Source: an uncultured Flavobacteriales bacterium
Lineage (GTDB): Bacteria; Bacteroidota; Bacteroidia; Flavobacteriales_D; Sanyastnellaceae
Reading direction: 5' to 3'
DNA length: 64,000 nucleotides
Assembly (NCBI GenBank): GCA_938085425.1
Contig: CALKGQ010000004.1
Coordinates: forward strand, 62,001-126,000
A program made the translations under genes and the position numbers. The notes below the pieces were generated by a model, which had not been told where the DNA came from, made no database searches, and was given only the letters and a program-made list of their open reading frames with translations. Positions 38,929 to 44,339 of the stretch are shown piece by piece. Numbering within the stretch: the stretch's first letter is position 1; the number at the start of each line of letters is the position of its first letter.

Positions 38929-39567
38929 ATGCGCGTCACCCTCTTCGATTGCTTGGACTCCTTTGCGTGGAACTTGGTCCATGACCTTGAGCGTTTGGGT
39001 GCCCAAGTGCATGTGGTGCAAGAGGGTTGCTGGGAAGAGGGCCTTTGGGACAGGACAGATGCCTTGGTGCTTTCCCCTGGCCCTGGGTTGCCAGAAGAGC
39101 ACCCCCAACTGCTCGAGGTGCTGGCAGAGGCCATGTCTCGTCATGTGCCTGTGTTGGGGGTTTGTCTGGGCATGCAAGCCATCCAAAGGCAACTGGGCGG
39201 GGAGCTTTTGAATTTGGCCTCTCCGTTGCACGGCAGGCAAACCTTGGTCTCTTGGGAGCACGTCCCAAAGGACCTCACCCCTTGGATGGACATGTGGCAT
39301 GACTTGCCATCATCGATGGAAGTAGGCCACTACCACAGTTGGGTCGTCCAAGAGGAGTCCATGCCATCCGGTTTGCATGCGAACGCCCGCAACAAGGAAG
39401 GCTTGGTCATGGCGATGGTCCATGACACCTTTCCCGTGGCGGGCGTGCAATTCCATCCTGAATCCGTCCTTACGGCCGATGGCCGAAAGCTCCTTCAGGG
39501 GTGGTTGACTGCGGCTCAGCGCTGCTTGGCCAACTCGGCCTCAAAGGTCTCTTTGAACTTCTCGTAG
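38929..39567 (+). CDS. Anthranilate/aminodeoxychorismate synthase glutamine amidotransferase subunit
   Basis: 212 residues, class I amidotransferase. The nucleophile cysteine is in VLGVCLGMQAIQRQLGG; the catalytic His and Glu lie in VQFHPESVLT. It opens with LFDCLDSFAWNLVHDLERLG, close to the TrpG/PabA opening. It supplies ammonia to a chorismate-binding partner for tryptophan or folate synthesis, but no TrpE/PabB gene lies nearby, so the pathway is undecided. Its last 52 bases overlap the convergent lipoprotein gene. Confidence 0.9.
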   Translation: MRVTLFDCLDSFAWNLVHDLERLGAQVHVVQEGCWEEGLWDRTDALVLSPGPGLPEEHPQLLEVLAEAMSRHVPVLGVCLGMQAIQRQLGGELLNLASPLHGRQTLVSWEHVPKDLTPWMDMWHDLPSSMEVGHYHSWVVQEESMPSGLHANARNKEGLVMAMVHDTFPVAGVQFHPESVLTADGRKLLQGWLTAAQRCLANSASKVSLNFS

Positions 39568-40082
39568 TTGTACTCTGCACGGATGCGCTCGTCTTGGGAC
39601 AAACGCTCGTTGTATTTCGACACCAATTCGGCACCTGACAATTCAATGGCGCGGTAGCTGACATAGCTGCCATCCGCCTTTTGGGTCAGACGTTCGCAAA
39701 CGGTGATGGCGCCCGAGAGTTGCTGGTTCACCACCGTCCGTGCGAGGTCGTTGAAGGTTTCTGTCACTTCCTCGACATTGTTGAATTTGGAGCTGTTGAC
39801 ATAGTTGTCGGTCACAATTTCCATGGTGGAATTGATGGACCGGGCCAGAGCAGACTCGCAATTGGAGCGCGACATTTTTTTGGCCGTTTCTCGGCTGATG
39901 CTTTCACCTGTGGCCGAGGCCCTGAAGTGGTCTTTGTCGCTTTTGTGGTCCTCACTGGCGCAGTATTCCAAAATTTCAATTTCCCCTGCTTGCTTGGGGG
40001 TGATGGATTTGCCTCCTTTGCATCCGGCGAGGGTTGCACCGCCCAAAAGGAGTGCCAAGGGGAGAATGTTGCGTAGGGTCAT
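39516..40082 (-). CDS. Lipoprotein, third gene of the CsgG/LPP20 operon
   Basis: 188 residues. Signal and lipobox LALLLGGATLAGC, then a charged helical mature part with KKMSRSNCESALARSINSTMEIVTDNYV and ARTVVNQQLSGAITVCERLTQKADGSYVSYRAIE. This last block resembles the LPP20 fold (strand-turn-strand after a helix). It is 49 bases downstream of the LPP20-like gene. Probably an outer-membrane-anchored periplasmic partner; precise role unknown. Confidence 0.82.
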   Translation of the reverse strand: MTLRNILPLALLLGGATLAGCKGGKSITPKQAGEIEILEYCASEDHKSDKDHFRASATGESISRETAKKMSRSNCESALARSINSTMEIVTDNYVNSSKFNNVEEVTETFNDLARTVVNQQLSGAITVCERLTQKADGSYVSYRAIELSGAELVSKYNERLSQDERIRAEYNYEKFKETFEAELAKQR

Positions 40083-40131
40083 GGATAGAAGTTTGATGGG
40101 AATGTAGTTCTCTTTTCTGGAAGGACCTGTT

Positions 40132-41505
40132 TCAGAAACCATGCCAAAGTCGAATGAGGGCAGGTACAAAATCCTCTTGGACCTCTGAAGACGCCTTTTG
40201 GTAGGCCTTGTCGGTGGCCCTAGGCAGGTCCAGTTGGATGCCCTTGATTTGGGTCAGTGTTTGGGTGAATACGGTCTCACCTTGTCCATTGGTCACTGTG
40301 CCAACGAGGTCGACATAGACCGTGTAGAACCCCTGTCCTTCTCCTCCTGGGCGCGCGTCGGCTTGCACGAGAAAAGCCATGGCTTCCTCGGAGGCTTCCT
40401 CAGCAGCGACCAATCGAACATGGCCTTTCTGGAGAGCCTGTTTCAAGGCTGGGGCAAGCATGGCTTGGTCCCGTTTTTTGCCGAACCCACGTTCCTCCAC
40501 GGTCAAAACCACCTCCACCGGGGCAAGCTCGACGCGCAGCCTCAAGGGCGGACTTTGCAATCCTTGGGCGGCCTGTCGGAATGGATGCATCAGGGCCAAT
40601 CCTTGGACAAAGGCCATGGGGTCCACCCTCGCCTCGAGGATGGTCGACGTCATGCCCGGCTCAAATTTTTCGAGGACGATGTGTGCGACCCCGTTGGCAT
40701 CCGTGACGGCTTCGCCCCGCGTGGGAAACTGTCCCCGGTTGTACCGGTACGTCAAGGTCACATTGGGCGCAGGCTTGCCGTCCAAAAGGGCGGTGACTTG
40801 GGCTTCGCCTCGGAAGGAGTTGCCCACCCGCAAGGTCAGGATGCTGTCGGAAGAGGCCAGGGAGAGCCCCGCCACACAACCGTCCAACATCGACACCAAG
40901 TCCTGCGCGATCACCGTTTCAGTGCCGTCCGATGCAATGTGCACCAAGGGGCGGTCCATGAAGGGCCGAATGACGTCAAGTCCACGGATGGAGGCATCCA
41001 CGGCCTGTTGGACATTGGAGGCGCTGCGTGCGTCGTTGGCCGATGCCAAGTGCCCGATGGCCAGGTCCATGGCGGCGAGGCGCTTGGCTTCTTGGATTTG
41101 GGCATGCTTCGATTTGCTCAAACGATAGTACACAAACGTCTCGGTTTCCGATTCATAGGAATCGACCAACTCGAATCCCTCCAAATCTTCCTGGGTGGTG
41201 CTGTTGGACTGCTGGGAGAAGGATTCCGTAAGCCAGCCATCCACCTGCAAAGTTTTCATGGTGGAAGTGGATTGCACTTGGACGCGAATTTCTCTCGACA
41301 GATTGTCCAGGGCACTTTGCTGGGCGACGGCGGGGGCATTGGCGGCGTGCACCAACTTGTTCGCTGCCCCTGTGCCCACATAGTATCCGGGGGTCACAGG
41401 CGTCTCTGTCAACCATGCAGGGGCAGGGGCCACAACAGGTTGGTTGGACGCACAACTTGAGAGCCATCCAGCACCCAAGACCCAAAGCCATCGGAAGGAC
41501 TGCAT
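40132..41505 (-). CDS. LPP20-like lipoprotein with Ig-like insert
   Basis: 457 residues. Lipobox LGAGWLSSCASNQ, then an LPP20-like domain (about 25-160: LDNLSREIRVQVQSTSTMKT, YVYYRLSKSKHAQIQEAKRLA). A middle segment (about 250-300: GKPAPNVTLTYRYNRG, VTDANGVAHIVLEKF) reads as an Ig/transthyretin-like fold. The C-terminal 120 residues resemble a further CsgG/LPP20-like domain. The ATG at 41505 falls 4 bases after the CsgG-like gene stops. Likely forms a complex with it. Confidence 0.82.
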   Translation of the reverse strand: MQSFRWLWVLGAGWLSSCASNQPVVAPAPAWLTETPVTPGYYVGTGAANKLVHAANAPAVAQQSALDNLSREIRVQVQSTSTMKTLQVDGWLTESFSQQSNSTTQEDLEGFELVDSYESETETFVYYRLSKSKHAQIQEAKRLAAMDLAIGHLASANDARSASNVQQAVDASIRGLDVIRPFMDRPLVHIASDGTETVIAQDLVSMLDGCVAGLSLASSDSILTLRVGNSFRGEAQVTALLDGKPAPNVTLTYRYNRGQFPTRGEAVTDANGVAHIVLEKFEPGMTSTILEARVDPMAFVQGLALMHPFRQAAQGLQSPPLRLRVELAPVEVVLTVEERGFGKKRDQAMLAPALKQALQKGHVRLVAAEEASEEAMAFLVQADARPGGEGQGFYTVYVDLVGTVTNGQGETVFTQTLTQIKGIQLDLPRATDKAYQKASSEVQEDFVPALIRLWHGF

Positions 41506-41509
41506 GCCG

Positions 41510-42910
41510 TCAGGGAATGATGGTGAGCAATTCACTTTCTACGCTGCCTTGCACCTGCTGGGCGATTTGCAAACAAGCTTGCTCCGTCAGGGCATCGGGG
41601 CTCTTCAAGGAGCGGCGGCCGGCCATCATGCGGTCGCGGTCGGCACGACCAGAAGACCCTGTTCTCGCCCCAGTGCTGCCGCCCAAGAAAAACTTGGCGC
41701 TGTTGCCGTCGTAGGAGATGTACCGGATGTTGTCCGAGGCACGTCCATACACCGTCTCTGTGGACACCAATTCACCTGTCGTGGTGTTGATGAACTTGAA
41801 GGTGCATGCCACTTCGACAGAAGCCTCCTGGAAAAACTCGCGGTATTGCACTTGGCGGTATTTGGTCTCGTAGTATTTCTTGCCTTCCTCATTCACCCGT
41901 TCCACCCGGTACTGCTCGTATCCAGTCTTGTAGGTCCTGTTGAGACGGCTCTGCCGGGGGTCGCACGTCGTGATGGTGGCTTTCAAAAGTGCCTTCGCCC
42001 CCAAGAGGTTCCCGATCTCAACGTCTGCACCCGCTGTCAGCCCGCTGAGGCCCATGCTTTGTTCTTGCAAGATCATGGCCAAACTTTCTCTGTCCACCAC
42101 CTTCAAAAACGGATCGTCAGAGGCCATCAATGCCTCTTCCACCAAGGACTGCAGTTTGACTTCCACATTGACCCTGCTGGAACCATTTTTGAATTCCATC
42201 AGCGCCACGGTGTAACGGCCTTCTTCAAGGACGTCGGTGAGCCGTTGTCCGGCATCTCGGTAGCCCGCATCGGTGTCCACCACTTCGGAGAAATGTTTGT
42301 GTGCCGTTCTCAATTGGTCGTTTTCTTGGGCGGCGATGCCGCTGCGGTACCGGGGTTCGCAATATGCCGTGTTGCGCAGTTGAGGGGCGTCCAGGTAGGC
42401 CGCATCGAGGGCCAGGATCTCGTCCAACAAGGTCAAAGCTTCCCCAAACGCCTCTTTTTCCAGGGAGAGGTTGGCGGCGCGGTACACCTCGTCGAGGTGG
42501 GCATCTTTCACCGATTGATAGGCTGCGCGTTTGGCCTCTGGAAACACCAGAGCAACACCAACGGCGGTGAGCTTTTGGTGCCAAGCCTCGGCATCGTGCC
42601 AAGCCTTCAGGGCAGCTTCTCGGTTGTGGTACATCACCGCTTCGTCGAACGATGCGATGTGTTGCCCCAGGACAATTTGCCCGGAACGCTTGAGCCCCAC
42701 CATCGCGTCGATGTTGGTGGGCTTTTTCATGACCGCTGTGTAGTACAGGTTGGCCGCTTGTGGCATCATGCCTGCCTCTTCCATTTTGCCTGCCCTCTTG
42801 ACAAACGCCTTGGAGCCGTTGCAACTGGGCAGTGCCAAGCCGGTCAGAACGACCGCGGTCAAAAGCAGCATGGACCTAAAGGAAGGGGGGAAGAAGGAAT
42901 GGGTGTTCAT
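41510..42910 (-). CDS. CsgG-like lipoprotein with TPR-like region
   Basis: 466 residues. Signal and lipobox VVLTGLALPSC. Residues about 35-210 are helical with a TPR-like pattern (AGMMPQAANLYYTAVMKKPTN). Residues about 215-400 match a CsgG/LpoB-type fold (YTVALMEFKNGSSRVNVEVKL, VVDRESLAMILQEQSMGLSG). CsgG in other bacteria is the outer-membrane curlin channel; LpoB-like relatives regulate cell-wall enzymes. The barrel-forming segments of true CsgG are not evident. First gene of a three-lipoprotein operon. Confidence 0.85.
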   Translation of the reverse strand: MNTHSFFPPSFRSMLLLTAVVLTGLALPSCNGSKAFVKRAGKMEEAGMMPQAANLYYTAVMKKPTNIDAMVGLKRSGQIVLGQHIASFDEAVMYHNREAALKAWHDAEAWHQKLTAVGVALVFPEAKRAAYQSVKDAHLDEVYRAANLSLEKEAFGEALTLLDEILALDAAYLDAPQLRNTAYCEPRYRSGIAAQENDQLRTAHKHFSEVVDTDAGYRDAGQRLTDVLEEGRYTVALMEFKNGSSRVNVEVKLQSLVEEALMASDDPFLKVVDRESLAMILQEQSMGLSGLTAGADVEIGNLLGAKALLKATITTCDPRQSRLNRTYKTGYEQYRVERVNEEGKKYYETKYRQVQYREFFQEASVEVACTFKFINTTTGELVSTETVYGRASDNIRYISYDGNSAKFFLGGSTGARTGSSGRADRDRMMAGRRSLKSPDALTEQACLQIAQQVQGSVESELLTIIP

Positions 42911-42992: not shown

Positions 42993-44339
42993 ATGAACAA
43001 TCCAAAGGTGATTTTGGTCCTTGGTGCAGGGCGAAGCAGTTCGTCGCTCATTGCCCATTTGCTGACACAAGCGTCCACAGAAAACTGGGAAATTCACGTG
43101 GGAGATTTGGACGTGAAAGCGGCGAAGGACAAGGTGGAAAGCCATGCGCATGGACATGCCTTTGAGATGTCTTCGGACGAGAAGGGCGACCGCGACAGGA
43201 GGATCGCAGAAGCGGATTTGGTGGTCAGCATGCTCCCGGCCTTCATGCATGTGGAGGTGGCACGCGTTGCCATCGCCGCAGGGGTGCATGTGCTGACCCC
43301 GAGTTACGTGTCCCCGGAGATGAAGGCATTGGATGCAGAGGCCCGGGCAGCCGGGGTTTTGGTGTTGAATGAGATGGGGCTCGATCCAGGTCTTGACCAC
43401 ATGAGTGCCATGCAGATCATCGACGACATCCGCGCTGAGGGAGGCCGCATGACGGGTTTTGCGTCCTACTGTGGAGGGCTCGTGGCCCCAGCGTCCGACG
43501 ACAATCCATGGCATTACAAGCTCAGCTGGAATCCACGAAATGTCGTCTTGGCGGGACAGGGTGGGTCGGCCACTTTTTTGGACCAGGGCCGCATCCGTGT
43601 CGTGCCTCCGCACCGCACTTTCCAGGCTTTGACGCCCATTGAGGTGGAGGGCCGGCCTTACGACGGCTACCCCAACCGCGATTCCCTTGGCTACCGCGAA
43701 CTCTACGGCCTGCACGATGTGCGGACCTTGGTGCGTGGCACCCTCCGCAGCGCAGGATATTGCCAAGCGTGGGATGTGCTGGTGCAATTGGGCATGGTGC
43801 GAGATGACGCAACCTTGACTTGGCCAGAGGGCATTTCTTGGGCGGATTGGACGCGGACATTCCTTCCTGCCTCCCTCGAACACGTTTCTTCCGTCCGAGA
43901 GGCTTTGGCCCATGCCACGCATGCCACAGAGGCTTCTTTGGCAAAGCTCGAATGGCTGGGTCTGTTCGAGGACGGCAATGGTCCCTCGAGCGCGCATGGC
44001 ACGCCGGCTCAAATCATCGAAGGCTTGGTCACGGAGAAGTGGGTGTTGCGTCCTGAAGACCGCGACATGATTGTGATGTGGCATCGGTTTGACTACGAAC
44101 AGAACGGGGAACGGAAAGCCAAAACCTCGAGCCTTTGCCTCGAAGGCAAGGACAGCACCTTCACGGCCATGAGCGACACTGTTGGCCTGCCCATGGCCTT
44201 GGCGGTGAAGCCCATGCTGGAGGGGACGTTTGGCACCACAGGCGTGGAGGTCCCGATGTCCCGTGTGTATTATGCCCCCTTGCTGGAGGGCTTGAAGGGA
44301 TTGGGCATCTCCTTTGTCGAAGCTGACATCCAACCTTGA
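42993..44339 (+). CDS. Saccharopine dehydrogenase (L-glutamate-forming type)
   Basis: 448 residues. It opens with a Rossmann motif (VILVLGAGRSSSSLIAHLL), followed by conserved VVSMLPAFMHVEVAR and LNEMGLDPGLDHMSAM. This matches the LYS9/AASS-C family that interconverts saccharopine with glutamate and aminoadipate semialdehyde, normally in lysine degradation. Its usual partner, lysine-ketoglutarate reductase, is not in the window. The next gene begins 1 base after its stop. Confidence 0.92.
   Translation: MNNPKVILVLGAGRSSSSLIAHLLTQASTENWEIHVGDLDVKAAKDKVESHAHGHAFEMSSDEKGDRDRRIAEADLVVSMLPAFMHVEVARVAIAAGVHVLTPSYVSPEMKALDAEARAAGVLVLNEMGLDPGLDHMSAMQIIDDIRAEGGRMTGFASYCGGLVAPASDDNPWHYKLSWNPRNVVLAGQGGSATFLDQGRIRVVPPHRTFQALTPIEVEGRPYDGYPNRDSLGYRELYGLHDVRTLVRGTLRSAGYCQAWDVLVQLGMVRDDATLTWPEGISWADWTRTFLPASLEHVSSVREALAHATHATEASLAKLEWLGLFEDGNGPSSAHGTPAQIIEGLVTEKWVLRPEDRDMIVMWHRFDYEQNGERKAKTSSLCLEGKDSTFTAMSDTVGLPMALAVKPMLEGTFGTTGVEVPMSRVYYAPLLEGLKGLGISFVEADIQP

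Follow-up and report, generated by a model that had tools for sequence, protein, structure and literature searches.

A conserved, unnamed trio of CsgG/LPP20-type lipoproteins in Flavobacteriales, possibly a divergent LpoB-type envelope-maintenance assembly

The window analyzed here, a stretch of 64,000 nucleotides from an uncultured Flavobacteriales bacterium, carries three minus-strand open reading frames in tandem (42910-39516), designated P0001, P0002 and P0003 (Table 1). The most likely start of P0002 is the ATG at 41505, rather than the GTG at 41535, and that of P0003 the ATG at 40082, rather than the TTG at 40169; with these starts, 4 nt separate P0001 from P0002 and 49 nt separate P0002 from P0003. 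Each product bears a lipoprotein signal peptide at its N-terminus and, as had been noted in a preliminary description of this DNA, a lipobox; the lipobox cysteine was kept in every orthologue examined (49/49 for P0001, 56/56 for P0002 and 42/42 for P0003). Upstream of the trio lie a divergent saccharopine dehydrogenase-like gene (42993-44339, plus strand) and then ispH, while a GATase class-I gene, ridA and lptD follow downstream. The saccharopine dehydrogenase-like gene was the sole strongly conserved neighbor, as 19 of 21 loci, from more than one family, have it beside the trio. The lptD gene adjoins the trio in some loci only and, together with ridA, the GATase gene, ispH and a mutL-like gene, was set aside as lineage synteny rather than a functional link.

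Table 1. Positions of the three genes and of their domains in the window.
Feature	Position	Strand	Description and basis
P0001	41510..42910	-	Lipoprotein, 466 aa; TPR-like helical front and CsgG/TolB-N/PelC-type domain; lipobox LPSC, residue 30
TPR-like helical region of P0001 (aa 33-230)	42221..42814	-	AlphaFold2 pLDDT above 90; TPR_19 in 31/49 orthologues
CsgG/LpoB-type domain of P0001 (aa 233-464)	41519..42214	-	Pfam in orthologues and VIA structure matches
Long polar beta-hairpin of P0001 (aa 324-360)	41831..41941	-	Model and hydropathy; not membrane-spanning
P0002	40132..41505	-	Lipoprotein, 457 aa; lipobox LSSC, residue 18
LPP20 domain of P0002 (aa 29-129)	41119..41421	-	Pfam E=3.7e-9; profile match to PDB 4kzs
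LPP20 insert of P0002, SHS2 helix to second strand (aa 74-111)	41173..41286	-	Strand-type amphipathic
Ig/macroglobulin (MG)-like domain of P0002 (aa 212-329)	40519..40872	-	VIA Z 11.9 to complement C5 MG4
C-terminal alpha/beta domain of P0002 (aa 328-457), LptE/HpaA/PelC/TolB-N-like	40135..40524	-	VIA Z 9-11; Foldseek
P0003	39516..40082	-	Small LPP20-like lipoprotein, 188 aa; lipobox LAGC, residue 21

The three genes were co-inherited within a single non-flagellated group of marine bacteria. P0001 and P0002 occurred in the same 45 of 60 relatives, collinear throughout, so that the gene-neighborhood survey called for in the preliminary description indeed revealed a trio kept in order. P0003 was found in 46 of the 60, because one fragmentary assembly has P0003 alone; this assembly aside, relatives devoid of the trio lacked all three genes together. 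The trio was adjacent in all 20 of the wider regions. On named genome contigs, all three genes were present in 63 loci, with 60 in the canonical order, two inverted and one with a broken frame. In the two inverted loci, P0003 was flipped yet still adjacent to its partners; genes that stay together in this way are likely to share more than a transcript, which points to a functional link. The best 80 loci on named contigs all belonged to environmental assemblies, nearly all labelled as Flavobacteriales or other Bacteroidota. In the literature searched, no paper on LPP20 with CsgG lipoproteins in Bacteroidota described the trio or treated both as a system. The trio is a conserved lipoprotein system without a name.

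P0001 matched the Pfam CsgG family (PF03783) above its curated cut-off (E=3e-8, 33.7 bits, cut-off 20.8), and all 49 of its orthologues matched the family too. Profile searches for LpoB (PF13036), which had been proposed together with CsgG and LPP20, gave no match for the P0001 of the window in the Pfam scan, and matched 28 of the 49 orthologues at E<=0.01. The AlphaFold2 model of P0001 (pLDDT 90.3) comprises a confident helical front, in line with the TPR-like part originally described and with the TPR_19 matches of its orthologues (Table 1). This front also matched 14-3-3 proteins (VIA Z about 11.5), a likeness that was put down to generic helical repeats and disregarded. The C-terminal domain resembled PelC, a dodecamer (VIA Z 13.9, rmsd 2.4, 125 residues), the middle domain of FlgT (Z 13.8, rmsd 3.0, 148 residues), the Vibrio LPHT ring (Z 13.4, rmsd 2.7, 146 residues), CsgG (Z 13.1, rmsd 7.2, 178 residues) and TolB (Z 12.4, rmsd 3.1, 119 residues), while the top Foldseek match of P0001 was CsgG. 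The curli pore formed by CsgG is characterized by two membrane-spanning beta-hairpins per subunit, whereas P0001 possesses a single long hairpin with two polar faces (mean hydropathy -1.4 to -2.0), and hence no barrel strand pair, which bears out the early remark that obvious barrel segments are lacking. An unlinked P0001 paralogue, also of the TPR-CsgG type, was observed in family members with larger genomes (L227, L228, L266-L275), and none was found in the genus of the window.

P0002 combines, from its N-terminus, an LPP20 domain, a helical hairpin, an Ig/macroglobulin-like domain and a C-terminal TolB-N/LptE-like domain, within a confident AlphaFold2 model (pLDDT 88.4). Its match to Pfam LPP20 (PF02169) exceeded the curated cut-off (E=3.7e-9, 37.3 bits, cut-off 25.9) and was retrieved in 56/56 orthologues; its profile also matched PDB 4kzs, the HP1454 protein of Helicobacter pylori, at 9.9e-5. 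The LPP20 domain contains an insert of 38 residues with strand-type amphipathicity, most of which was modelled in the monomer with a pLDDT below 50. In the Ig-like domain, the Pfam families bMG3 and DUF4198 were detected below cut-off, and Foldseek related the C-terminal domain to LptE and GNA1162. The expectation of an LPP20-like protein containing an Ig part was thus confirmed, by the LPP20 match on the one hand and by the MG/Ig-like domain on the other.

P0003, the most conserved protein of the trio, showed no convincing Pfam family on its own, LPP20 included, and profile searches of the PDB with its alignments yielded no useful match. Among 20 of its orthologues, 15 displayed LPP20 matches that were weak and below the family cut-off (best E=0.0017). 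Profile comparison aligned P0003 with the LPP20 region of P0002 (probability 95.9%) and, over its full length, with small LPP20 lipoproteins from other classes of the phylum (99.4%, E=1.3e-21), and the profile of the P0003-like family matched Lpp20 (PDB 5ok8) at 1e-4. Judged from its sequence relatives, P0003 is LPP20-related, which would extend CsgG/LPP20-type folds, first attributed to two or all of the products, to all three. Two outcomes had been named as fatal to the initial proposal, the failure to find such folds and a lack of conserved linkage; the folds were found and the linkage is conserved. Besides the lipid cysteine, C41 and C129 are invariant in all 42 aligned P0003 sequences and may form a disulfide. 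A second P0003-like lipoprotein, 193 aa long and sharing about 22% identity with P0003, is encoded elsewhere in the genome of the window (G000:C2:40832-41215; L260:6704-7285, plus strand), and comparable unlinked paralogues exist in most relatives.

In Bacteroidota, the export signal of surface lipoproteins is an acidic stretch that follows the lipid cysteine. At positions +2 to +7, acidic residues were totally absent from 47 of 49 P0001 orthologues and from 36 of 56 P0002 orthologues, the others of the latter having at most two, while P0003 had up to two. An export signal is carried at the N-terminus by surface lipoproteins in this phylum (PMC11885536), and the residue counts fit the prediction that the trio proteins are outer-membrane lipoproteins facing the periplasm.

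Clues to function came from distant relatives. P0003-like and P0002-like LPP20 lipoproteins of other classes in the phylum are encoded in clusters that also contain LpoB (PF13036, 3e-33), an MltC-type lytic transglycosylase and a TPR lipoprotein, and P0002 aligned with the second LPP20 lipoprotein of these clusters (96.8% in profile comparison). The TPR-like lipoprotein, of about 445 aa, adjoins LpoB across the phylum (L226:5186-6523 and relatives, alignment A7) and showed no convincing Pfam or NCBIfam match. An MltC-type SLT gene also adjoins one P0002 orthologue, and an M48 peptidase with SH3 adjoins another; within the taxonomic order of the window, no wall gene was a conserved neighbor of the trio. 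In one genome of another class, a WD40-CsgG protein precedes P0002-like and P0003-like proteins in the gene order of the window; there, a WD40 beta-propeller is fused to the CsgG-type domain (L218:9201-10778, minus strand) in place of the TPR-CsgG protein. Within 393 sampled genomes, all without P0001, LpoB (E<1e-19) was detected in 24 of the 35 with P0002/P0003-like matches, versus 43 of the 358 others, an association (Fisher 7e-13) whose value is a guide only, phylogenetic relatedness being uncorrected.

LpoB and P0001 appear, moreover, to occupy comparable places. Above its cut-off, PF13036 was matched in 9 of 60 genomes, solely by proteins of the P0001 family (orthologues or paralogues), and no true LpoB was found in P0001-bearing genomes among the 60 relatives. 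Across 395 genomes of the phylum, P0002 and P0003 were also encountered at the orthologue level without P0001 in one family (f19), whose three genomes of this kind each have an LpoB-TPR pair directly after rpe. In the genomes of another family (f1), a P0001 paralogue adjoins coaE in 12/12 loci, with rpe next in all 10 whose contig is long enough. These two arrangements suggest an equivalence between TPR-CsgG proteins and LpoB-TPR pairs. This complementarity is not strict, since related families without the trio lack LpoB too. Profile comparison aligned P0001 with LpoB through the signal peptide only, and with the TPR lipoprotein weakly (50% match); in view of these weak comparisons, sequence homology of P0001 with the LpoB-TPR pair was dropped, and a positional and functional analogy was kept. 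UB2H, the domain of PBP1B on which LpoB docks, did not reach its cut-off in any of the 60 genomes. Sub-threshold PF14814 matches lay mostly in frames some 1,150 residues long and are probably of the Mfd type rather than PBPs. A Bacteroides control likewise had LpoB with UB2H undetected, so that a missing UB2H counts only weakly against a role of the LpoB type in Bacteroidota. The genome of the window has one class A PBP, unlinked to the trio.

We tentatively favor, as the leading explanation yet one held at somewhat less than even confidence, a divergent LpoB-type lipoprotein assembly devoted to envelope maintenance, which may oligomerize and would face the periplasm, rather than a curli-like pore. 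From a mechanistic point of view, one operon would supply three lipoproteins anchored in the outer membrane at its periplasmic face. The parent module, as seen in other classes, would consist of LpoB, a TPR lipoprotein, an LPP20 lipoprotein and a small LPP20 lipoprotein; P0001 would unite the TPR part and the CsgG/LpoB-type part in a single chain, standing in for LpoB, while P0002 and P0003 would be the source of LPP20-type domains in the complex, P0002 probably self-associating through its LPP20 insert. Such an assembly would probably sense the distance that separates the outer membrane from the peptidoglycan, or span it, and would activate or position enzymes that build or cut the wall. This explanation draws on the linkage of the trio, the LpoB matches of P0001 orthologues, the homology of P0002 and P0003 to lipoproteins of LpoB clusters, the co-occurrence with LpoB in the 393 genomes, the f19 and f1 arrangements and the missing surface-export signal. 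We counted against it the absence of UB2H, the unlinked class A PBP, the lack of a conserved wall neighbor, the weak comparisons of P0001 with LpoB and with the TPR lipoprotein and the non-strict complementarity, and folds alone are no proof of function.

Next in rank, though unlikely, comes a non-flagellar outer-membrane ring or disk, which would reinforce the membrane around another trans-envelope machine or constitute a scaffold of its own, with P0001 in a FlgO-like, P0002 in a FlgT-like and P0003 in a FlgP/Lpp20-like role. The fold matches of P0001 to the PelC dodecamer, FlgT, the LPHT ring and CsgG, all at VIA Z about 13-14, speak for it. Ring-forming members of the FlgP/FlgT family tend to have an insert, a beta-hairpin, that separates the SHS2 helix from the second strand (PMC12222027); the insert of P0002 is strand-type amphipathic, as in ring-forming FlgP and FlgT, and of low confidence in the monomer, whereas that of P0003 looks helical, as in the non-ring Lpp20. 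In H. pylori, HP1454, which P0002 matched, and Lpp20 both interact with FlgP and with FapH, a ring protein (PMC11756786). Against a ring, flagellin was found in none of 60 genomes (that of the window and 59 relatives), while positive controls gave matches; this, with no CsgE, CsgF or curlin-like gene seen in the neighborhood, agrees with the first impression that flagellar and curli genes are missing here. No Pfam match to FlgO, FlgT_N, FlgT_M or FlgT_C was recovered in the P0001 or P0002 families, FlgT_N being marginal (E about 0.05) in 2 of 20 P0003 orthologues, and a partner machine was not seen in the neighborhood. The likeness to FlgO/FlgP/FlgT trios first pointed out holds for the shared folds and fails for membership of the FlgO and FlgT families. 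As to the suggestion of a ring or a wall regulator, ring-former folds and the candidate ring insert of P0002 lend partial support to the former, and the LpoB/lytic transglycosylase context and the LpoB matches of P0001 orthologues lend partial support to the latter. The two lines, one from fold and the other from context, are independent and need not conflict. A reading that joins them, in which LpoB was lost from a lineage and its kind of control over wall synthesis passed to a non-flagellar outer-membrane ring or disk, seems quite improbable; if true, the flagellar outer rings of Vibrio and Helicobacter would be specialized offshoots of an older wall-maintenance lipoprotein module.

Slightly less probable than the ring of other purpose is a general scaffold, or stress lipoprotein complex, tethering outer membrane to peptidoglycan with neither ring nor enzyme activation. 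Periplasm-facing lipoproteins without an export signal, TPR and Ig-like parts able to bind proteins, and a trio conserved without a known partner are all in line with it, but it leaves the clustering of relatives with LpoB and a lytic transglycosylase unexplained, and the peptidoglycan-binding domains OmpA_C, LysM and SPOR were detected by Pfam in none of the three proteins. Finally, export of a surface polymer through a secretion pore of the CsgG type, which the CsgG matches (Pfam in every P0001 orthologue, Foldseek on top) might evoke, is very improbable, given the extra hairpin polar on both faces, the lack of curli-type neighbors mentioned above and a CsgG fold common to proteins that are not pores, such as TolB and GNA1162 (structure matches) and LpoB (PMC7267771).

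The LpoB-type assembly that we favor can be placed among known systems. LpoB, the outer-membrane lipoprotein activator of PBP1B, is like P0001 a lipoprotein with a TolB-N/CsgG-type globular domain, but P0001 adds a TPR front and a long extra hairpin, and UB2H was not found in its hosts. LpoP and CpoB are TPR regulators of class A PBPs, and the lipoprotein LpoP binds PBP1B through its TPR domain (PMC7267771); P0001 likewise has a TPR-like part, yet LpoP is devoid of a CsgG-type domain and the likeness is that of generic TPR. CsgG, PelC, GNA1162 and LptE-type lipoproteins share the fold common to the C-terminal domains of P0001 and P0002, whereas the trio lacks barrel hairpins as well as linked curli, Pel or Lpt partners across relatives. 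In H. pylori, HP1454 and Lpp20 (HP1456) are the proteins matched by the profiles of P0002 and of the P0003-like family, respectively; Helicobacter, by contrast, is flagellated, and a CsgG/TPR partner is not described in the accessible text of the corresponding report (PMC11756786). If our explanation is right, CsgG, LPP20 and LpoB, families usually studied apart, would be joined in one gene module, hinting at how bacteria that have neither UB2H nor LpoB might steer wall synthesis from the outer membrane. Like the trio, the H-ring proteins FlgO, FlgP and FlgT of Vibrio combine CsgG/TolB-N-like and LPP20/SHS2 kinds of domain in three linked genes, but the hosts of the trio are non-flagellated, gene order and domain arrangement differ, and TPR and Ig-like parts are extra; the trio would then offer an ancestor-like context for flagellar H-ring and basal-disk proteins.
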